Made by a program: the position numbers and the translations under genes. Of a stretch of DNA of 64,000 nt, positions 30,192 to 52,267 are shown one piece after another; position 1 is the stretch's first letter; each line of letters opens with the position of its first letter. Source of the DNA: Catenuloplanes indicus. Its GTDB lineage: Bacteria > Actinomycetota > Actinomycetes > Mycobacteriales > Micromonosporaceae. Below the pieces are notes generated by a model, which was not told the origin of the DNA, ran no database searches, and saw only the letters and a program-made list of their open reading frames with translations. The stretch spans positions 6,200,001-6,264,000 of the forward strand of contig NZ_JAUSUZ010000001.1 of the NCBI RefSeq assembly GCF_030813715.1. Direction: 5' to 3'.

Positions 30192-30226
30192 GAACGGGAT
30201 TTACAAGATCACCAACGTTCTCGTAC
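30186..30226. other. Left attachment site (attL) of the serine-integrase element
   Basis: The crossover core GAAC (30192-30195) joins host codons to the element. The element arm CAAGATCACCAAC (30204-30216) is the exact reverse complement of the 13-bp arm at the right end (51645-51657). In addition GTACGAGAAC (30186-30195, host side) is repeated inverted as GTTCTCGTAC (30217-30226) in the element, giving a second potential stem across the junction. Confidence 0.9.
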
Positions 30227-32658: not shown

Positions 32659-33210
32659 TCAGAGGACGACTAAGGTGGCTCGGGTCCCATCCGGGCATGG
32701 CTCGATGAGGACTGCGCCGAGAGGTGTTCTGCGCTTGGTGTTCCGGGAGCCACCAATCTCGATCGCCGTCAGCGTCCCTTCTCGCTCGTCGTTGAGCAGG
32801 TGTTCGGTGATCCGCGCGACCTGCGAAGTGCCCGCGCATATCACGGATCGCCGGAGGTGCCGCGCGTGCGAGATCGCGATTCCTCCCGGGAATGACTCCG
32901 GCTCGTTCTCCCGTGCGACGACCAGGGTCCAACCGTCAGCGAGACTCATGCCCTCAACCACCGCGAGGATGCGAACCCCGTCGGTGTCACTAGTGTTCGA
33001 GAACGTCGCATGGCCTGCTGACTCCCCATCGACACGGGGCTCCAGGGTCAAGATTGATTCGGCTCCTCGGTCCTTGGCGAGGCTGATGATCTTTCCCTGC
33101 TGCTCGGCGTCGAGCCGTCCGGTGAGGAAGCCCGTGGTGACAACGACACTTCCGTGCGCGGAGCCGGGGCTACCGACGAGCACGGGAATTCTCGACAGCG
33201 CCGATGTCAT
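32659..33210 (-). CDS. Hypothetical protein after repSA
   Basis: 183 aa from the ATG at 33210 (MTSALSRIPVLVGSPGSAHG); an earlier start at 33261 is possible. Either choice overlaps the 3' end of the rep gene (41 or 92 bp), pointing to co-transcription. There are no membrane spans. Segments such as VVVTTGFLTGRLDAEQQGKI, ILTLEPRVDG and VVARENEPESFPGGIAISHA give no family I recognise. It ends 9 nt before the PD-(D/E)XK-like gene start. Confidence 0.6.
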   Translation of the reverse strand: MTSALSRIPVLVGSPGSAHGSVVVTTGFLTGRLDAEQQGKIISLAKDRGAESILTLEPRVDGESAGHATFSNTSDTDGVRILAVVEGMSLADGWTLVVARENEPESFPGGIAISHARHLRRSVICAGTSQVARITEHLLNDEREGTLTAIEIGGSRNTKRRTPLGAVLIEPCPDGTRATLVVL

Positions 33211-34567
33211 GAGCAGTGCGAGCTGCCTCTCGCGACACCCGGAGGTCTTCGGCGACACCATCGGCGAATATGGCTTGGCCCTCGGTGTGGCCGGTGTGGC
33301 TGTAGATCCAGTTTTTGTATCGGAGGACGTCTTTGTCGGCAGTGCGCCGGGCGTTCTCGCCTTGCTGGTGGTCGGCTCGGGCGTCGCGTAGTGCGGTGTA
33401 GGTGGTGGAGTAGGCGCGGCTCTTGGTGGCGGTGTGACCTCGGTAGCCGAGCTGGTGCGACCAGCGTCGGAGCTTGAGATCTTGGTGTTGTGGGCGTGAG
33501 GCGAGGAGCCAACAGGTCCACAGCAGCTTCCGGCTGTGTTCGGTGAGTCGGAGGGCCGGGATCATGGAGGCGTGCTCGACGGGCCGGTCGACCGTGATGC
33601 CGCTGAGGTCGGGCTTGGTGACGTACTTGGCGATGTAGGACGCCACGGCGCGTTCGGTGAGTTCGTCGCCGGTGGGGCTCGGGTGTATCGGGCGTACATC
33701 GAGCTGCTTTCCGAACTTCAGCGTGACGGCGGTGCCGGGCACGTGGAAGGCGACCCGGCGTGTTGCGGTCCGGATGGTGTCGGTGAGCAGAATGGTCGTG
33801 GCCCAGGCCGGTGGTGCGTCGGTGGGGCCGGTGGGTCCGTCGAAACGCATGATGGCGTGGAAATGGACCGCGCCGCGTCGTTGATATTCCGCGACTTTGG
33901 CGTAGGAGATACGGATGGTCTTGCGCATCTTGGTGCGGGAGATGCCGCGCACGCTGGCGAGGTGTTCATAGAGGTTGCGGTGTAGCCGTTGCCAGAGGTC
34001 GCGGGTATGGGCGTTGAACAGCACCGCGGATTCGTAGTCGTAGCAGTCCGGGCACAGTGGTGTGCCGTTCTCGGCCGCGTCGGTTGCGTGATGGAGCGTG
34101 CAGGACAGCGGCCGGCCGTGCGGGCAGATGGGCGCGTCGCGGCGCGGGCGGCAAGGCCTGTCGGTGGTGTGCCGGTGGACGGAGCCGAAACTCGGTGCGG
34201 TGAAGGTGACGAAGACGCGCGGGTGCTCGCGGACGCTGGTGGGGACGCTCTTGCCACCGGCGAGGCCGGAGACGACGAGTTGGTAGGTGTCGCCCTGGTG
34301 GAGTCGGGCGCAGGGTTCGCAGCGTGAGGCGCGGCTGTTACCGCAGGAGATGGTGAGCCGTCCGTGCGGGTGGTGGTCGGAGTCGAGCACGTCGAGGAGG
34401 CGGCCGGTGCGTGGTTCGACGGTGATGGTCCGGCCGATGAGGTGAACCGGATTGGCGCAGCCGCCGATGTGCCGCATCCGGGCCAGCCAGGCGCGGAAGT
34501 CCGGATGGGTCGCCGCGTCAACGATGTCTCGATCGATGAAGGGTTGGTCGGGGTGGTCGTGGTGCAT
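33170..34567 (-). CDS. repSA: RepSA-like rolling-circle replication initiator
   Basis: 465 aa. Seen: a Cys-rich N-terminal part (CGNSRASRCEPCARLHQGD and LCPDC), the metal-binding HUH motif in RRGAVHFHAIMRFDG (HFH), and the nicking-Tyr region VASYIAKYVTK (Y-x-x-K). This combination is the replication initiator of pSAM2-type actinomycete elements, which nicks one strand at a double-strand origin and starts rolling-circle replication of the excised circle. It lies 58 nt after the FtsK-like gene in the same operon. Confidence 0.9.
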   Translation of the reverse strand: MHHDHPDQPFIDRDIVDAATHPDFRAWLARMRHIGGCANPVHLIGRTITVEPRTGRLLDVLDSDHHPHGRLTISCGNSRASRCEPCARLHQGDTYQLVVSGLAGGKSVPTSVREHPRVFVTFTAPSFGSVHRHTTDRPCRPRRDAPICPHGRPLSCTLHHATDAAENGTPLCPDCYDYESAVLFNAHTRDLWQRLHRNLYEHLASVRGISRTKMRKTIRISYAKVAEYQRRGAVHFHAIMRFDGPTGPTDAPPAWATTILLTDTIRTATRRVAFHVPGTAVTLKFGKQLDVRPIHPSPTGDELTERAVASYIAKYVTKPDLSGITVDRPVEHASMIPALRLTEHSRKLLWTCWLLASRPQHQDLKLRRWSHQLGYRGHTATKSRAYSTTYTALRDARADHQQGENARRTADKDVLRYKNWIYSHTGHTEGQAIFADGVAEDLRVSREAARTAHDIGAVENSRARR

Positions 34568-34625: not shown

Positions 34626-36056
34626 TCAGTGGTCGAGGCGTGGCAGGCGCGGTGTGAGGGGTGCGGTCTCGGCCACAGCGGCGTCGAGGTCTGCCGGGTC
34701 CTGGTAGGTGGAGCGCGCGCGGATCCAGCCGCCGACGTCGGCGGTGGTGATGGCGACGCCCTGATCGTGGGGAGAGATGGCTTGCACGGCGTCGACAGCG
34801 TCGGGGTGGAGATCTCCGAAGGTCATGAGGGCGGTTTCGTCGTCGTTGACGCGCAGGCAGATGCGGCCGGCCAGTTGTGCTCGGAGCGCGGTGACGCCGG
34901 AGCCGAGGTCTGAGCCGACGCGCTGACCGGCGACGATGAGGTGGATGCCGAGGGCCGCGCCGAGCTGGCCGAGCCGCAGCAGGTTCGCGGTGGCACGCTG
35001 GGTGACTTCCTTCTCGCTGCGGTCGGCGATGAGGTACAGCTCCGCCAGCTCGTCGACGATCACGACTATCGGGACCGGCCGGACGGCGTCGGGGAGTTGC
35101 CAGATGTTGCGCACCCGGTGTTCGCGGCACAGCCGCATCCGGTCTTGGGCTTCGTCGAGGAGTCCGGTGAGTACGTCGGCGGCTTCGGTGCGGTCGCAGG
35201 CGAGGGCGGAGAGGCGGGAGGCGTGTGGGGCGAGTTCCATGCCGCCTTTGCAGTCGATGCCGACCAGGGCGATCGGCCGGGTTGCCCACTGGGCGACGGC
35301 CGCGTTGATCAGGGTGGACTTGCCGGATTGGGTGGCGCCCGTGATCAGCCAGTGCGGGAAGGTGCTCAAGTCGATCACCCAGGTCTGGCCGTCTTCACGT
35401 CGCCCGATTTCCGCGAGTAGGTCCGCTGCGACGGGTGCCCGCCCGGCCTCTGCCAGCGCGTCCCGATCTTCGTGGGCGCCGGTGCCGGTAAGGGGGTCAT
35501 TACGGAGGACGGTGAGGTCTACAGAGCCGCGCCGGCCGGGGGTGATACGGACCGCGTGGACGCCCCAGGCGTGGGCCATGGCTTCGGCCGCCTTGATGAA
35601 CGCCTCCGGGGTCTGACCGGAATGCATCCCGATGCTCGCCGTGACTCCGAACGCGCGTGGGCGGATCTGCCACAGGACCGGTATGAGTGGGACCGCTGCC
35701 CGGCTTCGTGCCGCGCGCGGGTCGTCGAACAGCCCGGCTACCGGCCGGTCGATGGCAGAGATGTCCGCGTTCAGGGCCAGCCGACGCCAGGTCAGCCGCA
35801 TTCGCGCTGCCAGCAGCAGCCAGCCCAACGTGAACCAGTACACCCGGGGAGCGCTCAGCCGTAGCGTCACGGCGACCACGAGCAGGACCAGGGCTGCGCC
35901 AGCGGCCCAGGCAGCGATCAGCGGCAGGTTCTGCACCAGGTCGTAGAGCTGTTCGGGGGTGACCCCCGCCCCGCCAGGCAGGACGCCAGACGGAGCAGGG
36001 GACGAAGCCGAGACGATGGACGACAGATGGGCGGAAAGCCCGTTTCGGACCTGCAT
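34626..36056 (-). CDS. FtsK/SpoIIIE-like DNA translocase (TraB-type transfer protein)
   Basis: 476 aa from the ATG at 36056, with GGAGG upstream; a much longer in-frame ORF upstream overlaps the preceding gene and is rejected. Two N-terminal membrane segments (NLPLIAAWAAGAALVLLVVA and VYWFTLGWLLLAA), then Walker A GATQSGKST (about residue 240) and Walker B VVIVDELAEL. The AGQRVGSDLGSG region is typical of conjugative FtsK-like pumps. In actinomycete elements such proteins move double-stranded DNA between mycelial cells at a clt site. The stop codon of the preceding gene overlaps its ATG (TGATG). Confidence 0.9.
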   Translation of the reverse strand: MQVRNGLSAHLSSIVSASSPAPSGVLPGGAGVTPEQLYDLVQNLPLIAAWAAGAALVLLVVAVTLRLSAPRVYWFTLGWLLLAARMRLTWRRLALNADISAIDRPVAGLFDDPRAARSRAAVPLIPVLWQIRPRAFGVTASIGMHSGQTPEAFIKAAEAMAHAWGVHAVRITPGRRGSVDLTVLRNDPLTGTGAHEDRDALAEAGRAPVAADLLAEIGRREDGQTWVIDLSTFPHWLITGATQSGKSTLINAAVAQWATRPIALVGIDCKGGMELAPHASRLSALACDRTEAADVLTGLLDEAQDRMRLCREHRVRNIWQLPDAVRPVPIVVIVDELAELYLIADRSEKEVTQRATANLLRLGQLGAALGIHLIVAGQRVGSDLGSGVTALRAQLAGRICLRVNDDETALMTFGDLHPDAVDAVQAISPHDQGVAITTADVGGWIRARSTYQDPADLDAAVAETAPLTPRLPRLDH

Positions 36057-36442
36057 CAGGCCTCCGCCTTCCCGGAGGTCCGACCCGACACGGCCGCGCC
36101 CGAGGTCGACACCGGACGGGGCGGCTCCGCGTGAGGCTTCGCGAACACCGACGCCGCTCGGTAGGACAACCCGTGCCGACCGTCGATCTCCCACATCGAG
36201 GCGTCCAGCTCCGTCAACCCGACCGCCGCGCCCTCCACGACCCCGACCGGCTCCGCCGCTGTCTGCACATCGATCACCGACGCCCGACGCGAATCGGCCC
36301 GCCGCACCGCGATACCGGTCACCCACAACGTGTTTCCGTCACGGTCCTTCCGCACCGCACCATCCAGCGTCGTCCGCTGCTCCGGAGCCGCGATACAAAT
36401 CAGGCCGGCCAGCCGCGACAGGTCCACAGGAATGGAATTCAT
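36056..36442 (-). CDS. Small hypothetical protein, first gene of the rep-transfer operon
   Basis: 128 aa, MNSIPVDLSRLAGLICIAAP..., with GAGGAG before the ATG. Stretches GNTLWVTGIAVRRADSRRAS and WEIDGRHGLSYRAASV suggest a small beta-rich protein. Proteins of this size sit in the same place, directly before the FtsK-like gene, in many AICEs; the function is unknown. Its TGA overlaps the next ATG by one base. Confidence 0.7.
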   Translation of the reverse strand: MNSIPVDLSRLAGLICIAAPEQRTTLDGAVRKDRDGNTLWVTGIAVRRADSRRASVIDVQTAAEPVGVVEGAAVGLTELDASMWEIDGRHGLSYRAASVFAKPHAEPPRPVSTSGAAVSGRTSGKAEA

Positions 36443-39808: not shown

Positions 39809-40345
39809 TCAGCTAAAGCCCACGACCTTGTGCTCGCTCAGCTCGATGCCGTACCGCCGGTAGACCTTCGTGGTGTTTTCGCTGGTGAGCTGTGATTCCT
39901 CGAACCCGAGCAGCGCCGCGATCCGCCGCACTTCCTCCGGAGACGACGCTTCGATCTCTAGATACGGCGGGATCATCGGCCACTCGTCGATCTCCAGCTC
40001 GGCACCGTCGAGCACGAAGCTCGTCCGGCGGTTCTCCTGGTACGACTTCGGATGGAAACCGAGGAACCCCAGGAGTTCGTTGGTCGCGTCGAGGCTGTCG
40101 ACGGTCACCTCCACCTCGTACGTGCCGTCGATGCCGTCGTGCGAGATCTCCTTGACCGCGAGCGTGGTCTTCGTGCCGGTGTCGCGCAGGCGAATCCATT
40201 TGCTTTGGTCGCCCGGCGTGATGTCGTAGACGTAGCGGCGCTGAAGCGTCGGGCCGTTGACCTTGCGCCCGCCCTTGGAGATGATCAGCTCAGCCGTCGA
40301 AGCGGGATCGACATCAAGCTTCTTCGCCTCGTACTCAGCGGGCAT
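39809..40345 (-). CDS. CYTH-domain protein (class IV adenylate cyclase / triphosphatase-like)
   Basis: 178 aa. The ExExK motif reads EYEAKK at residues 4-9, followed in CYTH order by RRYVYDI, WIRLRDTG, LAVKEISHD, YEVEVTVD, RRTSFVLDGAELEIDEWP and PYLEIEASS. All charged tunnel residues expected for a metal-dependent triphosphate enzyme are present, so it should bind an NTP, thiamine triphosphate or similar and either cyclise or hydrolyse it. It starts 10 nt after the radical SAM stop, so the two are one operon. Confidence 0.85.
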   Translation of the reverse strand: MPAEYEAKKLDVDPASTAELIISKGGRKVNGPTLQRRYVYDITPGDQSKWIRLRDTGTKTTLAVKEISHDGIDGTYEVEVTVDSLDATNELLGFLGFHPKSYQENRRTSFVLDGAELEIDEWPMIPPYLEIEASSPEEVRRIAALLGFEESQLTSENTTKVYRRYGIELSEHKVVGFS

Positions 40346-40355
40346 GGTTTTCCTC

Positions 40356-41468
40356 TCACAGTGATCGACCTTCGGTTAGCTGGCGGTACTCGGCGTCTCG
40401 AAGCGCCAAGACCTCCCGGCACAGATCGTGCCGGACGAATTCCTCCACGGGCATGCAGAGGTCCATGCGCTGTATGCACACGCCGACCTGATAGCCGCCC
40501 GCGGCGTCCCGGTAGAGCCGGACGCCATAGAAACCCTCCTGGCAATCGGTGCCGTTGTTGAACCTGCACCCCGCGCAGGTCTCAGGCAACCGGACGCTCC
40601 GGATCTGCTTGAACCAGACCGTACGACCACCCGGAAGCTTGTACGCCGTCCGGCTTCCGGAGACGCCGGCCGTTACGTGGTGAGCCGTCGCCACCGCGCC
40701 CAGATCGTCGAGGACCTGGAGGATGGCATCCACCGACTCCGGGCCGTCGTCCAGCGAGTTCAAGAGCCGGACGGTGAGCCAGGGGGAGTAGCCCTCAAGG
40801 AGCCGCCGCACTCGCGGCGCGTGGCCTGCATCGGGCACAACGATGTTTGCGCTCGCCCGCAGCCCGGTCCGCTCTGCTGCCGCGATCGACTCCTTCAACG
40901 CGGCGATCTTCCGCTCGGCCCGCCGAACGTTTGAGAACCGCGAATTTTGGACTTGAGCGAGTTCCTGCGGCGTCGTACCGAACACGCTGAAGTTGACCCG
41001 ATCCAACCCCGCCCGAGCGCAGTCCTCCAGTACGGCAGCGCCGCGCTCGCCGTTCGACGTGATGCCGACCCGGAGGCCGGCCGAAGCGGCGACGCGGACA
41101 ATATCGGCGAGGTGCGGATGCAGCGTAGGCTCGCCACCAGTCAGATGCACCTCTTCAAGCTCCAGTGCGTGGCACAGACTCGCCAGCGCCGTCACGAACT
41201 CCAGATCCGGAACGACGGCCGCCGGAACGAAACGTGCGCCGTTGGTGGCGACGTAGATCGAGACTCGACCCGAGGCACCCTGCGGCACGAACCGGCCGGA
41301 CGAGCGCGAGTTGTCCGCCGCGACCGGTGTTCCCTCGTTGTGGCAGAACGTGCACGTCATCCCGCAACTGTCGATGATCTTCACCCGCAGTGTTCGATCT
41401 CGATCCACTGACACAGGTACGGATGCGGCGCCCGCATCGAAGGCACGTTGAACAGGCACGACAGACAT
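40356..41468 (-). CDS. Radical SAM enzyme, MoaA-like
   Basis: 370 aa from the ATG at 41468 with GGGAG upstream. Binds the SAM-cleaving 4Fe-4S cluster through CGMTCTFC (CxxxCxxC, about residues 35-42), followed by the LTGGEPTLHPHL glycine-rich SAM motif. The C-terminal part has further cysteines: CAGCRFNNGTDC, then CIQRMDLC. These could hold an auxiliary cluster, as in MoaA (GTP 3',8-cyclase) or SPASM/twitch enzymes. The PNTVNFSVFGTT-like region (DRVNFSVFG) is also MoaA-like. No moaC or other Mo-cofactor gene is near. Operon with the CYTH gene; divergent XRE regulator 201 nt away. Confidence 0.88.
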   Translation of the reverse strand: MSVVPVQRAFDAGAASVPVSVDRDRTLRVKIIDSCGMTCTFCHNEGTPVAADNSRSSGRFVPQGASGRVSIYVATNGARFVPAAVVPDLEFVTALASLCHALELEEVHLTGGEPTLHPHLADIVRVAASAGLRVGITSNGERGAAVLEDCARAGLDRVNFSVFGTTPQELAQVQNSRFSNVRRAERKIAALKESIAAAERTGLRASANIVVPDAGHAPRVRRLLEGYSPWLTVRLLNSLDDGPESVDAILQVLDDLGAVATAHHVTAGVSGSRTAYKLPGGRTVWFKQIRSVRLPETCAGCRFNNGTDCQEGFYGVRLYRDAAGGYQVGVCIQRMDLCMPVEEFVRHDLCREVLALRDAEYRQLTEGRSL

Positions 41469-41669
41469 CACTGCACTCCCGTGGGCTCGGCTAGCGTCCG
41501 GGTACGGCAGCGCCACCCAACGGATGCGCCGCCGACCACGGCGGTTGACTCGCTCGGCCCATCCGGATGTGATGCATGACCGGTAGCGAATGACTGCTAG
41601 ACAGAGCGTCAGCCATCGGCAAGGCTGACTGAAGATGCGAGCCGTTTCCCACCGTTGCCTCTTGGCGTG

Positions 41670-42668
41670 ATGACTGAAGAAGCCCCGACCCTCGGCGAGA
41701 TCCTGAGGACTGCCCGCGAGGCGGTCGGATGGAGCCTGTCCCGCATGGGCCAGGCCACCGGCTTCAGCAAGCCGTACCTCTCGAAGCTGGAGACCGGCGA
41801 GAAGGAAGTAAAGTCCTGGCACATCGATGCCTACGACAAGGCGTTGGGAGGTGACTCTGTGCGTCGCCGTGCGCTGCTGAAGATGGGCGCAGGACTCGTC
41901 TCGCAAGCAGTCTGGTCTGAGCTGGAAATCCCGGCCGCTACGCCGACGCGATTTGATCCACCCGACCTGGGTGCCCTGGATGCTTCAGTCGACATGCTGA
42001 CCAGCCTTGGTTTGAAGCACGGCGGCAAGGCCGCTGCTGCGGCAGCCCGAGGTCAACTGCGATATGCCGCCGCTTTGCTCGACATGGATATGCCCGACAA
42101 GATCCGCGAGTCGCTGCTGACAACGGTTGGCAGACTTGCTGATAGAACCGCCTGGTCGATGGCAGACACCGGTCAGCTCGGTAGGGCCAGCCGGATCTAC
42201 GACTTTGCGCTTCTCCTTACGCCTGACTCGGCTCAGCGCTGGCTGACGCTGGTGAACCTTGCGAGCTTGCGGCTCGACGAAGCCAGTCCGCAACAGGCCC
42301 TCAATCTGCTCGACCGGGCCGAGCCGGATGTGCCCGTTCTCCGTTTCCTATTGATGTCAACGCGAGCGAACGCGTACGCGCAGCTTGGCGACTTTTCGCG
42401 AACTATCCGGTGTATCGGTGAGGCCGATGAGGCTCACGACGCCGTCAACCTATCGGACCTGCCAGCCGCGGTTCGGCCTTATGCGTCCGGGCATGATGCG
42501 CATGCTCACGCGGCTGGAGGTAAGGCGCTATATGTGCTGGCTCGTGGAGGCCATCGTAAGGCTGCGCCGCTCGCCGGTCGACGGTTGGAGGCGGCGATAG
42601 ACGCTTTCGGGGCGGAGCGTGCGCGCGCTATCACGAGTTGCCGCGATCGACTAAGTAGGTTGGCCTGA
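41670..42668 (+). CDS. XRE regulator with C-terminal TPR-like helices
   Basis: 332 aa from the ATG at 41670; a TTG at 41655 is the alternative. HTH at about residues 8-55: LGEILRTAREAVGWSLSRMGQATGFSKPYLSKLETGEK. The rest is helical with repeats such as GQLGRASRIYDFALLL and PQQALNLLDRAEPD, and a late LGDFSRTIRCIGEADEA, a TPR-like ligand-sensing part as in RRNPP/AfsR-like regulators. Divergent from the radical SAM-CYTH operon, so it probably controls it. Confidence 0.85.
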   Translation: MTEEAPTLGEILRTAREAVGWSLSRMGQATGFSKPYLSKLETGEKEVKSWHIDAYDKALGGDSVRRRALLKMGAGLVSQAVWSELEIPAATPTRFDPPDLGALDASVDMLTSLGLKHGGKAAAAAARGQLRYAAALLDMDMPDKIRESLLTTVGRLADRTAWSMADTGQLGRASRIYDFALLLTPDSAQRWLTLVNLASLRLDEASPQQALNLLDRAEPDVPVLRFLLMSTRANAYAQLGDFSRTIRCIGEADEAHDAVNLSDLPAAVRPYASGHDAHAHAAGGKALYVLARGGHRKAAPLAGRRLEAAIDAFGAERARAITSCRDRLSRLA

Positions 42669-43268: not shown

Positions 43269-46200
43269 GTGGACAAGCGGCTCAGTGATCTCGCCAAGGG
43301 ATCGCCGAACTTTGGACTTCTGTTCGCCCTCCAACCGCTGCTTGCGATGTACGGCGCCATGGCCGAGGCCACCGTCTTCACGAATCCAAACTCGTCGATG
43401 GTGCAGGCTGGACAGTTCGGTGAAGTCCTAGCCGAGGAACTGGTCACTCGAACCGGGATGCGTGTGGAGGGCGACCGGCAGATCGACCGCTTGACGGCCC
43501 TGACCCGAGCTGGCGTGCTCACACCGGCTATCCGTGACGCCTTCGACCAGGTGCGCCGCGACCGTAATAGGGCCGCACATCGGCACTTGTTCGACACCGC
43601 GGGTGCGCTCTCCGCAGTCCAGGTTTGCTACCAGCTAGGTCTCTGGTTTCACGACGCTATTGAGGGTCGCCGGACGGTCGCCCAGTTCGTCCCGCCGATC
43701 GATCCTGGTGAGAGCGCGCAGGTCACGGACCCGGCAGAACTAACCGAGCTGCGTGAGGCGCTGAACGGTCACCGGCAAGCGCTGACTCAGGCGCGAACGC
43801 GTCTGGCGGAGTCCACGAGCGCGTTGGAGGCTGAGCGCAAGGCACGCGTTGAGGCCGAGAGCCTCATCGCCAGCGCCGACGCCAACAAGCGTCAGCTACT
43901 TGAAATGATCGAGCAGCTGACGGCGCAAATTGGGGAGCTCCGTAGCGTACAGCAAGTCAAGTATGAGATCGCCCGCCACCAGCCACGCAAGGTCGACGCT
44001 CAGCGACGCGACGCCATCGTCCACCGGGCGCAGCGAGCCGCACCGCTCAATGAGGTGCAAGCCCGCGACGTTATCGACGAGATGCTCCGCGCGGCCGGCT
44101 GGGTTATCCAAGACCGTGATCAAATCAATCCCATGGCTGCGTTGGGCGTAGCGGTCAGGGAGTTCACCTTGGCTACCGGCCGAGCCGACTACGTGCTGTA
44201 TGTCGACGGCAAGATCGTCGGCGTGGTCGAAGCCAAGCGTGAGGGCGACCATCTGTCCAGCGCCGTTCAGCAGAACGACCGCTACGCCGCTGGTGTGCTG
44301 AAGGAACACAGTCTCGCAGTTTGGCGACGGGACGAACCGTTCGCGTTCCGCTACGCCACGACCGGCACAGAGACGTACTTCCTTAACCGCCTCGATCCGG
44401 ATGCCAGATCCCGCGAGGTGTTCTCTTTCCACCGGCCAGAAACGGTGGATGCTTGGATGCAGCGCGCCGACGGCGCAGCCGAGGTTCCGACCTTCCGGGC
44501 AGCCCTGCGGCGGCTCCCTGTGCTGGAGCCGAACGGGTTGCGCCTAGCCCAGATCGATGCGATTGCCGGCCTTGAAGAATCTCTCGGAGAGGACCGGCCG
44601 CGTGCGTTGATTGAGATGGCGACAGGAGCTGGCAAAACCTTCACAGCGGTGGCCCAGACTTATCGGCTTCTCAAGTACGCCAGAGCGCGTCGCGTCCTCT
44701 TCCTGGTGGATCGCACCAACCTGGGCAAGCAGGCACTCGACGAGTTTCGCAAATTCACGACACCCGACGACGGTCGCAAGCTGTCCGACATCTACAACAT
44801 CGACCGGCTCGGTGCGGCCGGACTCCAAGACACCTCGTCGGTGGTCATCTGCACCATCCAGAGGATGTACTCGCTGCTGCGAGGCGAGACCGTCAGCGAT
44901 GAGGACCAGGCCGATGAGGGCCAGGGCGAGCTGGCGTACGAGGATGCCTACGCTACAGATCTACCGATCGAGGTGTCCTACAACCCAGATGTCCCGATCG
45001 AGTCGTTCGACTTGATCATCATCGATGAGTGTCATCGATCCATCTACGGCCTTTGGCGGGGCGTTCTGGAGTACTTCGACGCCCACCTGGTCGGCTTGAC
45101 TGCCACACCGACCGCCCAGACCATCGGATTCTTCAACCGCAATGTCGTTTCCGAGTACACCTACCCACAAGCGGTTGCCGACGGCGTCAACGTGGATTTC
45201 GACGTCGTCCGCATGCATACAGACCTGCGCGAGAGGGGGGCCGCCACTATCGAGCAGGGCACGACCGTGCGGGTTCGCGACCGTAAGACCCGCCGGCAGC
45301 GCTACCAGGAGTTGAACGATGACTTCACGTACACCACCCGGCAGATTGGCCGATCGGTGGTCGCGGTAGATGAGATCAGGGCGGTGCTGCTCGCGTACCG
45401 CGACAACTGGCGACGCTGGTTCCCTGGACGTGCCGAGTTGCCGAAGACGCTAATCTTCGCGGTGGGCGAGGACCACGCCGAAGACGTGCTCGCTCTGGTC
45501 AAGGAGGTGTTCGGCCGCGGCGACGACTTCGCAAAGAAGATCACCTACAAGAGTCGACAGGCCGGCGACGACCCAGAACAGCTCATCCGTGACCTGCGGA
45601 CCTCACCTCGGCTGCGCGTAGCGGTCACTGTCGACATGATCGCAACCGGCACGGACGTCAAGGCGCTGGAATGCGTGATCTTCCTGCGCGAAGTGCGCAG
45701 CGCCGTGCTGTTCGAGCAGATGAAGGGACGAGGCGCTCGCACCATCGACCCAACCGAACTGCAAGAAGTCACCCCGGACGCTGACGATGCCGTGCGCAAG
45801 GAGCGCTTCGTCCTGATCGACGCGGTCGGCGTAACGGATTCCCCGCTCGTGGATGCGAAACCGCTCGTTCCTGCTGGTGAGCGACAGGTTTCCCTCGCGA
45901 AGCTGCTGGATAAGGCCGGAACCAAGTCGATCACCGCTTCAGAAGCAGAGATCCTCGCGGGGCGGCTCGCACGCCTCAACCAGCAGCTGACTAGCGAGGA
46001 ACGCGACCAACTGACCAGGGCTGCCGGTGGGCGTACCCTGTCGGACATCGCTGGCGCCATCGTCAAGGCTGTCGACCCAGACCGGCAAGAGAAGGCCGAA
46101 GCCGATGGGGGTAGGAAAGCTGCCCGCCAGCTCATCGAGGACGCGATCGCGCCGCTGACTCAGTCTCCCGAGCTGCGTCGACACATCATCGAAATCCGAC

Positions 46201-46829
46201 GGGACAAGGACTACGTGATCGATGAAGTCACCGCCGTGAATGTGACCGACGTCTACGAGGTCCCACGCGAGCAGCGCGCCCGGGAACAGGTTGGCCGCTG
46301 GCGACGCTTGCTGGAGGAAGAACGTGACCGAATCGCGGCAGTTCAGATTGCGTTAACCAGCCCTCGGGCAGTCTCCCCCGGCGAAGCGTACGGCGCGCTT
46401 AAGGAACTCGCGTCGGACATCCGGCGGCCGGACTTCTGGTGGACACCACAGACGCTGTGGGTGTACTACGAGGATCTCGGAGTCGCAACCCATCGCGGGG
46501 ATCGTGAAGCTGGCATCCCCGACCTTATTTCCCTGATCCGGTACGAGCTTGGTGCCGATCAGGAACTGCGGCCGTATTGGGCGACGGTGGAGGAACGTTT
46601 CGAGGGATGGCTGCTGCGTCAGGAGCAGGCCGGGGCCGGCTTTACGGAGGAGCAGATGTGGTGGTTGCGCTCCATCCGTGACGTGGTCGCCAGCGACGTC
46701 GGAATCAGCCCTGCCGAGTTCAACGCCGAGCCCTTTAAAGGACACGGCGGCGGCCGCGGATTCGCCCACGCCTTCCCCGACCGAAACGTTCGATCATTGC
46801 TGAGTGAACTGAATCGAGAACTGGCTTGA
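43269..46829 (+). CDS. hsdR: Type I restriction enzyme, R (HsdR) subunit
   Basis: 1186 aa from the GTG at 43269. Cuts DNA far from the recognition site after ATP-driven translocation, in complex with HsdM and HsdS. Order of parts: an N-terminal DUF4145-like helical domain (about residues 1-130), a coiled coil (about 150-230), the nuclease core GRADYVLYVDGKIVGVVEAKREG (D...ExK), Walker A MATGAGKTFTAV (about residue 457), IIIDECHRSIYG as the DEAH-type box, LVGLTATPTAQT and the motif VI QMKGRGARTI. The C-terminal part, from about 950, binds the methylase. The intact motifs suggest an active system. Its stop overlaps the hsdS start by 4 nt (TTGA). Confidence 0.96.
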   Translation: MDKRLSDLAKGSPNFGLLFALQPLLAMYGAMAEATVFTNPNSSMVQAGQFGEVLAEELVTRTGMRVEGDRQIDRLTALTRAGVLTPAIRDAFDQVRRDRNRAAHRHLFDTAGALSAVQVCYQLGLWFHDAIEGRRTVAQFVPPIDPGESAQVTDPAELTELREALNGHRQALTQARTRLAESTSALEAERKARVEAESLIASADANKRQLLEMIEQLTAQIGELRSVQQVKYEIARHQPRKVDAQRRDAIVHRAQRAAPLNEVQARDVIDEMLRAAGWVIQDRDQINPMAALGVAVREFTLATGRADYVLYVDGKIVGVVEAKREGDHLSSAVQQNDRYAAGVLKEHSLAVWRRDEPFAFRYATTGTETYFLNRLDPDARSREVFSFHRPETVDAWMQRADGAAEVPTFRAALRRLPVLEPNGLRLAQIDAIAGLEESLGEDRPRALIEMATGAGKTFTAVAQTYRLLKYARARRVLFLVDRTNLGKQALDEFRKFTTPDDGRKLSDIYNIDRLGAAGLQDTSSVVICTIQRMYSLLRGETVSDEDQADEGQGELAYEDAYATDLPIEVSYNPDVPIESFDLIIIDECHRSIYGLWRGVLEYFDAHLVGLTATPTAQTIGFFNRNVVSEYTYPQAVADGVNVDFDVVRMHTDLRERGAATIEQGTTVRVRDRKTRRQRYQELNDDFTYTTRQIGRSVVAVDEIRAVLLAYRDNWRRWFPGRAELPKTLIFAVGEDHAEDVLALVKEVFGRGDDFAKKITYKSRQAGDDPEQLIRDLRTSPRLRVAVTVDMIATGTDVKALECVIFLREVRSAVLFEQMKGRGARTIDPTELQEVTPDADDAVRKERFVLIDAVGVTDSPLVDAKPLVPAGERQVSLAKLLDKAGTKSITASEAEILAGRLARLNQQLTSEERDQLTRAAGGRTLSDIAGAIVKAVDPDRQEKAEADGGRKAARQLIEDAIAPLTQSPELRRHIIEIRRDKDYVIDEVTAVNVTDVYEVPREQRAREQVGRWRRLLEEERDRIAAVQIALTSPRAVSPGEAYGALKELASDIRRPDFWWTPQTLWVYYEDLGVATHRGDREAGIPDLISLIRYELGADQELRPYWATVEERFEGWLLRQEQAGAGFTEEQMWWLRSIRDVVASDVGISPAEFNAEPFKGHGGGRGFAHAFPDRNVRSLLSELNRELA

Positions 46830-48325
46830 GCGGCATGCATCAACCGGCACTTCCAATCGGATGGACCTGGGCTCCTTTAGGGGAAGTTGGTAGATGGTTT
46901 GGCGGTGCCACACCATCCAAGAGCCGTGACGAATATTGGTCTAATGGCTCTATTCCATGGCTTTCGCCTAAAGATATGGGACGTGATACGCTGCGCCATA
47001 CCCGAGATCGCATCACGGACGTGGCAGTTGAAAAATCCCCAGTTACGGTTGTCCCCGCAGGATCTGTAGCTATCGTTGTGCGGTCGGGAATTCTGGAACG
47101 TACAATTCCCGTCGCTCTGGTTCCATTCAATACCACGCTCAATCAAGACATGAAAGCGATCCAAACTCATCCAGGGATCTCTCCGCGGTGGGTTGCGTGG
47201 GCGTTGCGCGCTTTTGCTCCGGAGATAATGCGGCAGTGTCGGAAGTCGGGCACGACCGTTGCGTCATTATCCACCGATGCGTTAATGGACTTCCGGATCC
47301 CGCTTGCTCCATCGCCGGAGCAGGGTCGAATTATCGAATTGATCGAAGATCATGTTTCCCGACTCGACGTTGCCGTGGATTATGTGCGCCGCTCGAAGGG
47401 GCAAGTAGCTAAGCTTAGGCAGGCCGCATTGACGCGTGCGTTGAAGGGTGAAGGAATTCCGCTATTACTGGAGGAGGGTACAGCAAGAGATTTGCTTCCT
47501 AGCTCGCCGGTTGTTCAGAGTGGCTACCCTTGGAAATTGCCCGAAGGTTGGCTTTGGGCTAAATTGGGCGACCTTTTCAAGGTCTATGTCGGGACCACGC
47601 CGAGCCGCAAGGAGCCCTCTCTGTGGTCTGGTTCCGTCCCTTGGGTATCCAGTGGTGAAGTGAATTTCAGTCGAATTTCTGAAACTCGTGAGAAAATTTC
47701 ACCGAGCGCGGTGGGAAACTGGGAGACGAGGGTTCACCCGCCAGGAACGGTCATGATTGCCATGATCGGTGAAGGGAAAACGCGAGGGCAGGTCGGAATC
47801 CTTGATATTGAAGCGGCGCACAACCAAAATTGTGCATCGATCCGCGTTTCGGAAACCCGTGTCCTTCCCGAGTACGTTTTTCTGGCGCTGGAGCAGCGTT
47901 ATCTTGAGTCGCGTAGAGCAAGTTCGGGAGGGAATCAACCCGCCCTGAACAAAGCAAAGGTGGAGGCCATTCAGATTCCTCTGCCACCCCTCGCTACCCA
48001 GCGCCATATCGTTGCTGCTATCGAAGAATTCAGCGTGATGGCCACCCACTTCCATTCGGTGATTGAAGGCTCTTTGAGTAAGGCATCCTCCTTGCGTCGC
48101 TCTATTTTGACTCACGCCTTCGGCGGCAAAATTGCACCCCAAGATTCCGCCGATGAGCCTGCGGTCAGTCTTTTGGGGCGTAGCGGTCAGCAGCATGGGA
48201 TCCGGTTCAATAGACCCAAGCGTGCAGGTCGATCAACAGGGCCTGGGGGGCGAGAAGAGGTTCCACCTCCACCGCATTCAAGCCAAACGTCCGTTTTGGC
48301 CACTCAGCAGGAGTTGCCGCTGTGA
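46826..48325 (+). CDS. hsdS: Type I RM specificity subunit
   Basis: 499 aa from the TTG at 46826 that overlaps the hsdR stop; the ATG at 46835 is the alternative. Two target-recognition domains, each opened by a similar block: LPIGWTWAPLGEVGRWFGGA with IPWLSPKDMG, and LPEGWLWAKLGDLFKVYVGT with VPWVSSGEVN. Each is followed by a conserved helical spacer: PEQGRIIELIEDHVSRLDVAV and TQRHIVAAIEEFSVMATHFH. This two-part layout means a bipartite DNA target. Base composition is clearly lower in GC than the neighbours, especially in the recognition domains, which points to exchange by horizontal transfer. Confidence 0.95.
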   Translation: MSGMHQPALPIGWTWAPLGEVGRWFGGATPSKSRDEYWSNGSIPWLSPKDMGRDTLRHTRDRITDVAVEKSPVTVVPAGSVAIVVRSGILERTIPVALVPFNTTLNQDMKAIQTHPGISPRWVAWALRAFAPEIMRQCRKSGTTVASLSTDALMDFRIPLAPSPEQGRIIELIEDHVSRLDVAVDYVRRSKGQVAKLRQAALTRALKGEGIPLLLEEGTARDLLPSSPVVQSGYPWKLPEGWLWAKLGDLFKVYVGTTPSRKEPSLWSGSVPWVSSGEVNFSRISETREKISPSAVGNWETRVHPPGTVMIAMIGEGKTRGQVGILDIEAAHNQNCASIRVSETRVLPEYVFLALEQRYLESRRASSGGNQPALNKAKVEAIQIPLPPLATQRHIVAAIEEFSVMATHFHSVIEGSLSKASSLRRSILTHAFGGKIAPQDSADEPAVSLLGRSGQQHGIRFNRPKRAGRSTGPGGREEVPPPPHSSQTSVLATQQELPL

Positions 48326-49881
48326 CGCTTCCCGCTTCGGCTGTCGCTCGTGCCAGAACAAATAACCTTGTTGCAAAATTGTGGAACTATTGCAACGTCC
48401 TCCGAGATAATGGTCTATCCACGATTGATTATGTGGAGCAGCTCTCATATCTGCTCTTCCTGAAGATGGTTGACGAGATTTCAACCGACCCGTTCACGGA
48501 GGATGAGGCAAAAGCGGTCGTGCCTTCGGGCTATAACTGGAGGTCACTGGCGAGCCTTAAGGGCTACGAGCTTGAAATGCATTATCGTAATATTCTAAAC
48601 GAGCTGGCGAGGAATCCCGGAACCACGCTCGGCACTATTTTCGCGAAGGCCCAGAATCGGATCACCGAGCCGTCGCTACTTGAGAAACTCGTGATCGATT
48701 TAATCGGCCGGGAAGAATGGACCGTTCAGGGCGCTGACCTAAAGGGTGACGCTTATGAAGGTCTACTCGCCAAAGGTGCTGAGGATACCAAGACCGGCGC
48801 TGGCCAGTACTTCACCCCACGAGCACTGATCGACGCCATGGTCGATGTGATGCAACCGGGGCCGGACGACACAATCACCGATCCTGCATGCGGAACCGGC
48901 GGCTTTCTCATTGCTGCTCATCATTACATTCGCGAGCACCACATGCAGTACCTTTCGCGCGAGCGGCGTCTAGCGCTTGGAGCTGGGAGGATCTGGGGTA
49001 ACGAGCTAGTCACCGGGACTGCACGACTGGCGGCGATGAACATGCTGCTGCACGGTATCGGCGACGCTGATGGGCCTTCATTGATCACTGTCGGAGACGC
49101 ACTCGCCGAACCGCCCAAGAAGCACGCCTCCCTGGTTCTTGCCAATCCGCCGTTTGGCAAGAAGTCGGCCATCACGGTTATCGGCACGGACGGCAAGGCC
49201 GACAGGGAGGACATCTCCTACGACCGGCAGGACTTCCGCGCTACCACCACGAATAAGCAGCTCAACTTCCTTCAGCACATCATGTCGTTGTTGGAGATGA
49301 ATGGGCGAGCCGCGGTCGTTCTTCCAGACAACGTGCTGTTTGAAGGCGGTGCCGGGGAGAAGGTGCGCCGACGGCTGCTCGACGAGTTCGACTTGCACAC
49401 AATTTTGCGCTTGCCCACCGGGATTTTCTACGCCGGTGGCGTTAAAGCCAACGTCCTCTTCTTCGAGAAAAAGCCGCCGCGCAGCGGCGGAGTGCCCAAC
49501 ACAACGAAGCTCTGGGTGTACGACTTTCGAACGGCTAAGCACTTCACCCTTAAGCAGCACCCGCTCCGCCGAGCCGACCTGGAGGAGTTCGTTCAGGCAT
49601 ATTTACCAGGGAGGCCACGCGCCGGGCGTGAGGAGTCGGAGCGGTTCAAGTGCTTCGACTATGCCGAACTCATTGCCCGCGACAAGGTCAACCTCGACAT
49701 CACCTGGATGCGCGATCCTGCGCTCGACGATGCCGACAGCCTGCTACCGCCCGATGTGATCGCTCAGGAGATCATCGAAGACCTCCAGGCCGCACTGAAC
49801 GAGTTCGCCGCGATCGCGGAAGCGCTCGGTGCGGAGGTGCCGGCTGACGCCGAGATGATCGAGGAGCCAATGGCCTACTGA
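48322..49881 (+). CDS. hsdM: Type I RM DNA methyltransferase (HsdM)
   Basis: 519 aa from the GTG at 48322, which overlaps the hsdS stop (GTGA). N6-adenine methylase: N-terminal HsdM_N helices (LWNYCNVLRDNGLSTIDYVEQL), SAM motif I DPACGTGGFLIAA, catalytic motif IV NPPFGKK, plus GQYFTPRALIDAMV and LPTGIFYAGGVKANVLFF. With HsdS it protects the element's host; the R-S-M gene order and coupled starts make one operon. Confidence 0.97.
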   Translation: MTLPASAVARARTNNLVAKLWNYCNVLRDNGLSTIDYVEQLSYLLFLKMVDEISTDPFTEDEAKAVVPSGYNWRSLASLKGYELEMHYRNILNELARNPGTTLGTIFAKAQNRITEPSLLEKLVIDLIGREEWTVQGADLKGDAYEGLLAKGAEDTKTGAGQYFTPRALIDAMVDVMQPGPDDTITDPACGTGGFLIAAHHYIREHHMQYLSRERRLALGAGRIWGNELVTGTARLAAMNMLLHGIGDADGPSLITVGDALAEPPKKHASLVLANPPFGKKSAITVIGTDGKADREDISYDRQDFRATTTNKQLNFLQHIMSLLEMNGRAAVVLPDNVLFEGGAGEKVRRRLLDEFDLHTILRLPTGIFYAGGVKANVLFFEKKPPRSGGVPNTTKLWVYDFRTAKHFTLKQHPLRRADLEEFVQAYLPGRPRAGREESERFKCFDYAELIARDKVNLDITWMRDPALDDADSLLPPDVIAQEIIEDLQAALNEFAAIAEALGAEVPADAEMIEEPMAY

Positions 49882-49955
49882 TCCACAATGGACTTGCGCC
49901 CACCCCGCCCCAGCCGGAAGGCTGATTGCAGTCAATCGAAGGGCGGGGTGGGTCA

Positions 49956-50606
49956 GTGGTTCGTGAGTATCCGCAGACGCGTGAGTTCCAGGCGTTCAAG
50001 ACCAACATCGAGTACGCCAGGAAGATGGTCGTAGCCGGGCAGAGCCTGGCAGCCTTCCAGTCCCCGATCCTTGACATCGGCGACTTCTACCGCGCCGCTT
50101 GGGTGCAGGCTGTCGGCGCTATCGACCATTGGTTTCACGAGGAGTTGTACCGGCGCGTGGCGGAACTTGCCGCTCAAGACGGTCCCGGAATGCCCTACCA
50201 GCTCACCGCCTTCGAGCTTCCGCTCAGGAGGGTGGAAGAGGTTCGGCGAGGAACCACAACCCTTGCCGATGCGGTGTCCGAGCAAGTGCGTTTGAAGTGG
50301 GGCAACGTCGCCCTGCAAAACCCTCGGAAGATCGGCGAGGCGCTCAAGCTAGTAACCGAGGAGAACGTCTGGGTCAAGGCAGCCGGCCAGATCAACGAGT
50401 GGACCCATGGCCGGACCGCGATGAACGAGCAGGCGCTGAAGAGGCGGTACATCGCCATCACCGAGCGTCGGAACAAGATCGCTCATGAGGCCGATCTGGT
50501 CGATGGAAGCCTTCATGAGCGGCGAGCCATCACCGACGCAGAGGTCACCGACGCGATCAATTGGATCGAGCGTATCGCTCTGGCCATCGCCACTGTTCTT
50601 GGGTAA
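49956..50606 (+). CDS. HEPN-like protein downstream of the RM operon
   Basis: 216 aa from the GTG at 49956; a longer ATG-like start at 49926 is possible. Entirely helical. Near the C-terminus it reads RYIAITERRNKIAHEADLVDG, where RNKIAH is the R-x4-H motif of HEPN ribonucleases. The AVGAIDHWFHEELYRRV stretch early in the protein resembles the RiboL-PSP-HEPN group (D near FYRAAWVQAVGAIDHW). Only 74 nt separate it from hsdM on the same strand. HEPN proteins beside type I systems are often second-line defence (abortive infection) RNases. No MNT partner is visible. Confidence 0.75.
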   Translation: MVREYPQTREFQAFKTNIEYARKMVVAGQSLAAFQSPILDIGDFYRAAWVQAVGAIDHWFHEELYRRVAELAAQDGPGMPYQLTAFELPLRRVEEVRRGTTTLADAVSEQVRLKWGNVALQNPRKIGEALKLVTEENVWVKAAGQINEWTHGRTAMNEQALKRRYIAITERRNKIAHEADLVDGSLHERRAITDAEVTDAINWIERIALAIATVLG

Positions 50607-50659: not shown

Positions 50660-51559
50660 TCACAAACCAAGCTGACCTAGAGCCTGTTCGCAACGGCCAA
50701 CTAGCTGTTGCCGCAGCTCGCCTGCTCGCTCGAAGAAGTTGCGCTGGAACCGTACGTACTCCGCGCGGCCGTCGGGTGTCTCCACCATCAATGGTTCGAG
50801 ATTGATTGTCGTGAGGTCATACGGGCTGGCGCGCATGTCCAGCGTGCGGATCTCCTTGGCCAGCTCGAAGCAGTCGGCGATCAGCTCGCTCGGGACAAGC
50901 GGGGAGAGCTTGTAGGCCCAGCGGTAGACGTCCATGTTCGCGTGGAGGCAGGCGGGCTGGTCGTGCTCGTGCTGTGTGTCGCGGGTCGGCTGGAGGAGGT
51001 TGAGCGGCTTCGCGGCGGGGGTGAAGAAGCGGAAGGCGTCGAAGTGACTGCACCGCACCGTGAGTTGGTCGACGACCGCGGCTGTTCCCTCCGCGCCAAG
51101 CCGGAGCGGCAGGATGTTGTGCCGGGTCTCCGCGGGCTGCTGCCGATAGACCATCGCCCACTCGTGCATCCCGAAGCAGCCGAAGTGTGGCGCCCGTGCA
51201 GCAGTTGAGGCGAGCAGGCGGTGAATCCACTCCAAGGACTCGCGCCGACGTTCCAGGACGGCGCCGACGTCGAGCCGGACCAGGCCGTCATCGTCTGCGA
51301 CGTAGTACGGACCGAACTCCTCGGGAGTCGCGTCTTCGAGCAGGAAACCCGGACCGGGCTGCCAACGGCGAAGCTGCGCCGGCCGGAAGTTGTAGTACGT
51401 GAGGAGAAATTCCTCGATCGACTGGCGGCCGTGCTTCGCGCGCTTGGCGAGGTGGTCGCCGAGGAGGCTGTCGATCCGCGCGGCGTGAGCCGTCTGTCGA
51501 GCGCGCCACTCATGGTGGGGGAGCAGCGTGAGCGCGGAGCGATCGACGGCCGAGGTCAT
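50660..51559 (-). CDS. Element-borne complete copy of the interrupted host gene
   Basis: 299 aa from the ATG at 51559, with GTGGAGAA upstream. Same family as the split gene: WRARQTAHAARIDSLLGDHL, FLLTYYNFRPAQLRRWQPGP, GCFGMHEWAMVYRQ, RCSHFDAFRFF, CLHANMDVYRWAYKL and TLDMRASPYDL. It is clearly diverged from the host sequence, so it is not a duplication made on insertion. It lies in the host gene's orientation just inside attR, and its ATG is 4 nt after the stop (51564-51566) of the frame that continues from the host N-terminal stub. At the crossover position it has CCTC instead of GTTC. Usually annotated as 3-methyladenine DNA glycosylase; the actual activity is not proven by motifs. Confidence 0.93.
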   Translation of the reverse strand: MTSAVDRSALTLLPHHEWRARQTAHAARIDSLLGDHLAKRAKHGRQSIEEFLLTYYNFRPAQLRRWQPGPGFLLEDATPEEFGPYYVADDDGLVRLDVGAVLERRRESLEWIHRLLASTAARAPHFGCFGMHEWAMVYRQQPAETRHNILPLRLGAEGTAAVVDQLTVRCSHFDAFRFFTPAAKPLNLLQPTRDTQHEHDQPACLHANMDVYRWAYKLSPLVPSELIADCFELAKEIRTLDMRASPYDLTTINLEPLMVETPDGRAEYVRFQRNFFERAGELRQQLVGRCEQALGQLGL

Positions 51560-51644
51560 GGGTTCATTCTCCACGGGTACCGGGGAGCAGCGCGAGACCC
51601 GGTGTCCGCATAGGTTGACCTGCATGGATGTCAAACGCTAGAGT

Positions 51645-51669
51645 GTTGGTGATCTTGACTTTCCTGAAC
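51645..51669. other. Right attachment site (attR)
   Basis: Element arm GTTGGTGATCTTG (51645-51657), then ACTTTCCT and the core GAAC (51666-51669), which joins host codon 44. Combined with the left end, the reconstituted attP has perfect 13-bp inverted arms around a 20-bp centre with GTTC exactly in the middle. That symmetry is what large serine integrases need. Confidence 0.9.
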
Positions 51670-51797
51670 AGGAAGTCCAGCACCGGGTGCTTGATGCCAC
51701 GGCGGCGGCGCTCCAGGTGCGGCACGATCCAGGTGTCGACGCGCGCCTGGTGGGCCGCCTCGCGGGCACGCCAGACGGACTCGTCGAGGAGGGGCAT
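51666..51797 (-). pseudogene. 5' part (44 codons) of the host gene split by the element
   Basis: ATG at 51797 (MPLLDESVWRAREAAHQARV) through HPVLDFLF at the crossover. Joined to the 3' part at 30191, it restores HPVLDFLF-SYYSHRPAQLRRW in frame, matching EEFLLTYYNFRPAQLRRW of the intact copy. After the crossover the frame runs 33 more codons into the element and stops at 51564, giving a 77-aa hybrid ORF. The host promoter must lie upstream of 51797, in the short gap shared with the divergent GNAT gene. Confidence 0.92.
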
Positions 51798-51814: not shown

Positions 51815-52267
51815 ATGGGCCGCATGAGAATGAGACGGGCCGTGGCCGAGGACGTTCCGGCGATTGTCGCGCTGCTGGCCGACGACGGGCTCGGCCGCCG
51901 CCGGGAGTCGGTGACGGACCTCACGCCGTACCGCCGTGCCTTCGAGGTGTTGAACGACGACCCCGCTCAGCTGCTCGCGGTGGCCGAGCTGGACGGTGTG
52001 ATCGTCGGCACGCTCCAGTTGACCGTGATCCCCGGGCTGGCACAGCGCGGGCGGACGCGGGGCCTGGTCGAAGCGGTCCGGATCGCGTCCGACCGCCGTG
52101 GTCAGGGCCTCGGCGCGGAACTGATGCGCTGGGCGATCGCGGAGGCCCGGTCCCGTGGGTGCTCACTGGTGCAGCTGACCTCGAACGCCGCGCGGCACGA
52201 CGCACATCGCTTCTACGAACGCCTCGGGTTCACGCCCAGCCACGTCGGCTTCAAGCTGGAGATTTAG
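51815..52267 (+). CDS. GNAT-family N-acetyltransferase
   Basis: 150 aa from the ATG at 51815; the ATG at 51824 is also possible. MRRAVAEDVPAIVALLADDG at the start, the acetyl-CoA loop in RIASDRRGQGLGAELMRWAI (R-x-x-G-x-G/A) and the terminal NAARHDAHRFYERLGF are typical. Substrate unknown. Divergent from the interrupted gene, only 17 bp away. Confidence 0.9.
   Translation: MGRMRMRRAVAEDVPAIVALLADDGLGRRRESVTDLTPYRRAFEVLNDDPAQLLAVAELDGVIVGTLQLTVIPGLAQRGRTRGLVEAVRIASDRRGQGLGAELMRWAIAEARSRGCSLVQLTSNAARHDAHRFYERLGFTPSHVGFKLEI

Follow-up and report, generated by a model that had tools for sequence, protein, structure and literature searches.

How can a mobile element live inside a conserved gene of its host while the function of that gene is kept? 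The question is raised by an element in the genome of Catenuloplanes indicus, which we have analysed in a window (the whole stretch of DNA under study) of 64,000 nt, positions 6,200,001 to 6,264,000 of contig NZ_JAUSUZ010000001.1. A host gene is split by the element, and a complete, diverged version of the same gene lies inside the element, directly behind the new junction. We consider it very probable that this is an insert-and-rescue integrative element, bearing a recoded replacement behind the split host gene. The anatomy of the locus, its recurrence elsewhere, the recoding and the selection on the copies can be read from the DNA itself, and we take them in turn. The features to which we refer are as follows.

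29466–30191, minus strand: 3′ tail of the host gene, 241 codons and stop, frame still open (joined-frame alignment)
30192–30216, minus strand: attL, with arm GTTGGTGATCTTG (30216–30204) and core GTTC (30195–30192) (half-site comparison)
30255–31757, plus strand: large serine recombinase, 500 aa, adjoining attL (PF00239, PF07508, PF13408)
33170–34567, minus strand: RepSA-type replication initiator, pSAM2 type (PF20199, E 3e-140)
34626–36326, minus strand: FtsK/SpoIIIE translocase, TraB-like (PF01580, E 6e-24)
39809–40345, minus strand: CYTH-domain protein (PF01928), kept beside the replacement in genome G324
40356–41906, minus strand: radical SAM protein (PF04055), kept in G324
41655–42668, plus strand: HTH/TPR regulator of the NsdA family (NF053720, above cut-off), kept in G324
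43269–49881, plus strand: type I restriction-modification operon, hsdR (43269–46829), hsdS (46826–48325) and hsdM (48322–49881)
49926–50606, plus strand: HEPN-like protein (PF18735, 22.8 bits, below the Pfam cut-off of 28.4)
50660–51559, minus strand: element-borne replacement, 299 aa, from ATG at 51559 to the stop at 50660 (57% identity to the host protein)
51560–51665, minus strand: lead of 106 nt between attR and the replacement, with the open stub frame, GTGGAGAA and TTGACA
51645–51669, minus strand: attR, with core GTTC (51669–51666) and element arm CAAGATCACCAAC (51657–51645) (half-site comparison)
51666–51797, minus strand: 5′ stub of the host gene, 44 codons (unbroken orthologue in the four congeners compared)

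The initial annotation proposed that the element divides a host gene into 44 and 241 codons, and this proved right to the base: the stub runs from the ATG at 51797 to codon 44, TTC (51668–51666), and the gene is intact in all four congeners compared. Joined, the two halves form an intact frame of 285 aa that aligns across the junction with the unbroken gene of each of these genomes, at 93.9, 91.5, 88.7 and 83.3% identity over 245–247 aa, and on both sides the gene has the same neighbours in the window and the four congeners. The joined gene has a dN/dS of 0.30 and 0.20 against two congeners. The window genome was found to hold two members of the gene family, the host gene and the copy. Divergent from the host gene is a 150-aa ORF (51815–52267, plus strand), which has matches of 83–88% in three of the four congeners and whose ATG is 18 bp from the host ATG; if this ORF is a real gene, the host promoter must overlap it.

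The element measures 21.5 kb and runs from the serine recombinase at attL to the replacement at attR. Its initiator scores 463.8 bits against the NCBIfam RepSA model, under that model's cut-off of 700, and its translocase 34.8 bits against the TraB model NF041214, far under the cut-off of 800. The radical SAM protein, whose true start is probably downstream of the start of the longest ORF, has partial viperin-like matches. The gene set of AICEs is a recombinase with RepSA and an FtsK/TraB-like protein, and serine-recombinase AICEs in protein-coding genes have been reported (PMC3218068). With a recombinase beside its att site, RepSA and an FtsK-type translocase, the window element has all three and, as judged by its gene set, is an AICE. 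It differs from the AICEs in the part of PMC3218068 cited here, where no replacement of the disrupted gene is described, by its complete recoded homologue docked at the junction.

The replacement aligns with the joined host protein at 57% identity over 279 columns (E 2e-110), which is not a chance likeness, and it is indeed the complete homologue, adjoining attR and in the orientation of the host gene, that had been predicted. Equally, the reading of the junction holds: the stub frame continues for 33 codons into the element, with GTGGAGAA at its end, and stops with the TGA at 51566–51564, 4 nt before the ATG of the copy. One of the three frames of the lead is open, and taken alone the open lead of the window is weak evidence for coupling. 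A perfect TTGACA in the lead is oriented toward the copy and lacks a good −10; our promoter scan for sigma-70-like sites on the copy strand found none. We infer that the host promoter drives the replacement and that the ribosomes of the stub are handed on to it, in which case integration may be neutral for the host. Against the copies in genomes G324 and G223, described below, the replacement has a dN/dS of 0.135 and 0.150, and over the replacement copies compared the value is 0.12–0.34, indicating purifying selection.

The target gene goes by the name "3-methyladenine DNA glycosylase" on one RefSeq plasmid record, a name for which our family, sequence and fold comparisons gave no support. There was no usable match in Pfam, NCBIfam, PADLOC or the PDB sequences, and a Foldseek search with an AlphaFold2 model (pLDDT 89.6) returned nothing significant (best E 0.67). 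With no PADLOC match, we set aside the idea that the replacement is a known defence gene. Residues invariant in 28 aligned rows include C128, H132, H147, C170, H172, D174, C204, H206 and D210 (copy numbering), and this pattern of Cys, His and Asp suggests a metal site.

Among 354 genomes of the family, two have relatives of the replacement at 80–81% identity, G324 and G223; with the copy in the window, we call these the E copies. In G324 the copy lies behind a host stub of about 27 codons, and the TGA of the stub frame overlaps the ATG of the copy. Over 80 nt this locus matches the end of the host gene, and nothing in it matches the window recombinase. Window positions 39816–41412 (CYTH and radical SAM genes) and 41565–42642 (regulator) match it at 77.6% and 71.5% DNA identity, and the CYTH, radical SAM and NsdA-like regulator genes accompany the replacement in both the window (39809–42668) and G324 (L044 3732–6563). 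The restriction-modification operon and the HEPN-like gene (43269–50606), located between regulator and replacement in the window, are absent from the shorter G324 locus and were therefore either inserted later in the window or lost in G324. G223 has a single gene with an A-type host start followed by a body like that of the element copies, apparently a fusion of the two. The three E copies form one clade (SH-aLRT 100), sister to the gene of G340, which sits at the ordinary locus (97), and stand apart from the Catenuloplanes host genes.

The same gene is interrupted at a second site, near codon 185 (host numbering) in the stretch HANMDLYKWA, by smaller elements that we call B elements. They were found in a genus that, judged by its neighbours in the tree, would be Micromonospora, in genomes G274 (about 3.5 kb), G250 (about 3.3 kb) and G284 (about 2.8 kb), in the order host stub, B-type replacement, 123-aa ORF, serine recombinase and host tail. 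G254 has this order within about 2.6 kb, with a broken recombinase. The 123-aa ORF (L079 6498–6869) is without a Pfam match, has about 96% DNA identity among G274, G250 and G254 and was not found in the G284 element; it is a candidate directionality factor. At 80% identity or more, the B recombinase occurs in four of the 354 family genomes (query genome included, one copy broken), and all four sit in the split gene beside a replacement. Between the B-element genomes, DNA identity is 94–96% for the recombinase, 88–97% for the copy and 78–89% for the host halves, the stubs of G250 and G284, which have deletions, matching at 48%; in the pairs that involve G284 the copy (88–90%) is hardly closer than the host halves (80–89%). 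We count the gap between recombinase and host halves as evidence that would fit mobility of the element. The B copies group with genes of Geodermatophilaceae (99) and away from the A genes of their own genus, and we therefore regard them as foreign.

Other insertions at this gene span a range from no rescue through restoration of an end to a full docked replacement. G204 has an 8.9-kb element at codon ~185 with another recombinase, and no replacement was found inside it. In the IMG/VR contig L013 the stub ends at codon ~185 and is followed by what may be the beginning of a further, different recombinase; the 10.9 kb of this incomplete contig contain no replacement. From G204 and L013 it follows that rescue is not obligatory. 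In G431 a 47.8-kb element supplies a diverged 3′ end of the gene (73% DNA identity); host part and new end meet in frame at GACCTCTACAAG, which they share. G431 excepted, genomes outside the family with two matches to the gene were not taken to have split genes, since a variable stretch of the protein can split local alignments. The target gene of G279 (L084 5880–5960) has lost 2 nt exactly at the codon-185 crossover (AACATG--TCTCTACAAG), with a frameshift, perhaps a scar left when end joining repaired a cut by a serine recombinase.

The initial annotation had suggested a search for its integrase beside homologues of the target, and had held that related elements in the same site without the homologue would speak against a docked replacement. 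The search brought up other recombinases beside homologues, while the window integrase has no close relative in the genome and viral contigs scanned, the best match in the 354 family genomes being 38% identical. Around related recombinases in nine genomes, 14 stretches were scanned and no homologue pair flanking the recombinase was found, duplicates in G183, G147 and G169 being ruled out by their position; the same scan recovered the host/copy pair of the window as a control. The objection applies in part: in G204 and L013, at the other site of the gene and with other recombinases, no homologue was seen. Camvirus phages have integrases of the same kind, large serine recombinases, those of phiScoe3 and phiCAM being 46.7% and 45.8% identical to the B recombinase. 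These phages differ in that no phage record in the collection searched matches the replacement protein (E 1e-5).

A second target gene shows the same design. In G332, G261 and G230, recombinases with 39–40% identity to the B recombinase split a methylpurine-DNA glycosylase gene, and the elements carry a second glycosylase (PF02245, E 2e-58 to 8e-62) that is 46–57% identical to the pieces of the host glycosylase. Copies and host pieces of these three are assigned to PF02245 by Pfam, and those of a fourth genome, G464, by similarity only. The G464 recombinase is 52% identical to that of G332, and in G464 the copy follows the host stub immediately, the two overlapping at ATGA. A diverged, element-borne glycosylase homologue is consequently present in 4/4 genomes with the closest recombinases. 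G332 and G230 have the arrangement stub-recombinase-copy, whereas the element of G261 (L194 9012–12000, about 2.4 kb) has its recombinase by the host tail, and its copy runs against the host gene and must use another promoter. Three of the four genomes also yielded the host tail: G332, at a distance of 12.8 kb, G261, and G464, where it is shortened; the contig of G230 ends too early. The core shared by the glycosylase elements is CATG, whose palindromic centre would allow either orientation. A class-level search returned 13 of 394 genomes with a recombinase at E ≤ 1e-60 to that of a glycosylase element; G464 and G431 are among them, and in the remaining 11 (33–44% identity) the stretches examined, two of them short, contain neither a match to the target gene nor flanking duplicates.

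The core of the initial proposal, a full-length, diverged replacement that docks behind the stub, is borne out by its recurrence, which involves other recombinases, another site and another gene. In seven of the nine cases with a stub and an adjacent copy, stop and start overlap by 4 nt, the stub frame ending in GTGA (G254, G250, G284), TTGA (G274) or ATGA (G177, G324, G464). As five of the seven overlaps belong to the B lineage, we count three independent origins. The exceptions are the window, with its 4-nt gap, and Streptosporangium pseudovulgare (L168), in which the stub frame overruns the start of the copy. The stubs of G250, G284 and G177 have been shortened by internal deletions and in all three the frame to the overlap is kept, which is supportive, not decisive, as chance would give this about once in 27. 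It is this recurrence elsewhere, and not the window alone, that makes the docking geometry more than chance.

Neither recoding of the attachment sites nor gene replacement in relatives figured in the initial annotation. Rebuilt from the half-sites of the element, attP has perfect 13-bp arms, GTTGGTGATCTTG ... CAAGATCACCAAC, around a central TT in the shared core GTTC, and this TT forms the first two bases of the residue-44 codon TTC. Residue 44 is Phe in 117 of the 118 rows that are neither E nor B copies, and all three E copies have CTC as crossover codon instead. Changed at bases that the recombinase uses, the copy should not be a target itself, and we infer that it escapes its own integrase. 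Of 114 positions conserved at 90%, 12 differ in all E copies; within 8 codons of the crossover of the window integrase, five of ten conserved residues are changed in all three (p 0.001, or p 0.0004 when two changes shared with the G340 gene are left out), the width of ±8 codons having been set once, after the site was seen, and used as the single width. Among control clades and single rows, 21/23 have no change near this crossover, and the other two, L138 and L156, belong to Geodermatophilaceae and lie close to the B clade. The B copies have MDCH instead of MDLY at their own core in 29/29; recoding at this second site is weakly enriched (3/16, p 0.035), and for both sites together five of six conserved changes are counted (p 0.002). 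The change at the B core is common to the copy of a Blastococcus MAG, L156, in which no element was seen, and two E changes at site 2 recur in the G340 gene. In a comparison limited to copies and targets, all four glycosylase copies have CTG or CTC for the target ATG at the core.

In relatives the outcome of such events may be seen. Of 36 genomes picked by score in the putative Micromonospora genus, 34 have a B-like gene by identity, and 26 of these were checked by tree. Read with 1.5 kb on each side, 22 of the 26 B loci are without A-type stub, recombinase piece or 123-aa ORF, and the remaining four are the elements of G254, G274, G250 and G284. At three loci that were read more widely (L085–L087) the B gene has the upstream neighbour that the A gene has elsewhere, and five or more B bodies are fused to VTAALAP, the A-type start, or to one of its variants. 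In many Micromonospora the replacement appears to be the only copy left. In a tree of 51 loci (26 B, 25 A), built from the 650 nt upstream of each, ten label changes are required, compared with a mean of 17.3 and a minimum of 11 in shuffled labels; we take this to mean several replacements rather than ten, as this short tree is noisy, the B loci include the four elements, and ten B loci form a group suggestive of vertical inheritance. S. pseudovulgare (L168) has a recombinase fragment 90 nt behind its B gene.

From these observations we propose the following course of events, in which expression, coupling, escape from the integrase, the effect on fitness and the order of steps are what the arrangement predicts. 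The serine recombinase would join attP with attB in the conserved host gene, splitting it after codon 44, as sites and split attest, and a complete foreign version of the gene is thereby placed directly behind the new host-element junction in the same orientation, as is seen. The host promoter, and ribosomes that reach the end of the stub frame, 4 nt short of the ATG, would then express the replacement, a geometry with counterparts elsewhere. Altered at the crossover codon from TTC to CTC, the replacement would be spared by the integrase. Excision would restore the host gene, whose joined frame is intact. Alternatively, the host halves may decay and the element be lost, leaving the replacement as the sole copy; these states are seen side by side, and their order is our conjecture.

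Other explanations deserve consideration. The homologue could be accidental cargo, acquired fortuitously, as through an imprecise excision from the gene of a relative, and with no role in rescue, which would suit both the existence of G204 and L013 and the other, unrelated cargo of the window element. We find this very improbable, as the gene that is carried corresponds to the one that is broken in two target families and with three recombinase groups, the copies lie beside the junction, with the coupling geometry in most cases that have an adjacent stub, and are under purifying selection and changed at the crossover. It is unlikely, if less strikingly so, that there is rescue without docking, the copy having its own promoter in the 106-nt lead or inside the element and the stub geometry being a by-product of compactness. 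The perfect, correctly oriented TTGACA and the opposed copy of G261 would agree with this, but the scan found no sigma-70-like site on the copy strand, and the 4-nt overlaps in seven of nine cases and the frame-keeping deletions in three stubs argue for docking.

Another proposal is site exclusion, in which the copy mainly leaves a version of the gene without attB that blocks competing elements, rescue being secondary. Up to five recombinases are found at two sites of this gene (those of the window, the B type, G204, L013 and G431), and the B copies are changed near both sites. However, the orphan host tail keeps the other site while the window element is in place, and the G340 gene, at its ordinary locus, shares the two E changes at site 2; we rate this proposal as quite improbable. 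A more serious contender, although doubtful, is that the replaced alleles of Micromonospora spread by descent or exchange like any ordinary gene, elements capturing one of them later, so that fixation by elements is an illusion of direction. Vertical descent predicts the clustering of ten B loci in the upstream-flank tree, and a B-like gene occurs in Blastococcus L156, where no element was seen. On the other hand, the B alleles need ten changes on that tree (shuffled labels giving a mean of 17.3 and no value below 11), at least five B genes are fused to an A-type host start, and L168 keeps a recombinase fragment just downstream of its copy. We therefore keep to the insert-and-rescue reading.

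How does this compare with known systems? Elements that restore the end of the gene they interrupt include those at tRNA 3′ ends, phage 21 and e14 in icd, and SXT in prfC. There, too, the function of the target is kept after integration, and G431 restores the 3′ end in frame at the very gene studied here. In the window, by contrast, the element brings an entire second gene, gives up the fragment of the host gene and keeps the host frame as no more than a leader: the in-frame host-element fusion found in G431 is absent, the stub frame stopping before a separate complete copy. Cleave-and-rescue and homing-and-rescue gene drives are synthetic systems in which a gene is disrupted and a recoded copy, immune to the enzyme, is provided; the window element is natural, integrase-based and bacterial and without biased inheritance, so the likeness is in logic only. 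The skin element is a regulated gene integrity element. The same holds for SpyCI in mutL (PMC4701971) and HE-PICI (PMC10111431), as presented in the parts of these papers cited here. In such elements the gene is split by integration and restored by excision, as we would expect for the window; in contrast to them, function need not be lost while the window element is integrated, because a replacement is carried. In the titles and abstract openings of the open literature searched we found no description of the insert-and-rescue phenomenon, which is not proof of absence.

We lean towards the view that there is a natural class of insert-and-rescue elements, using several serine recombinases and at least two conserved genes, whose foreign copies are recoded at the att site against their own integrase, are mostly wired to the promoter and ribosomes of the broken gene by stop/start overlap, and have repeatedly ended in permanent replacement of a core gene, with the element vanishing. 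The recoded attachment site makes self-immunity of the rescue copy directly testable, and the pairing of a recombinase with a diverged homologue of its target offers a simple genome-wide finder for such elements, as well as a guide in choosing integrase sites that leave the host gene covered. In this way a conserved gene can house a mobile element with little cost to be expected, and there would be a concrete, non-homologous route by which conserved bacterial genes may be replaced by foreign versions. If this is true, conserved genes with odd phylogenies may be scars of such elements.
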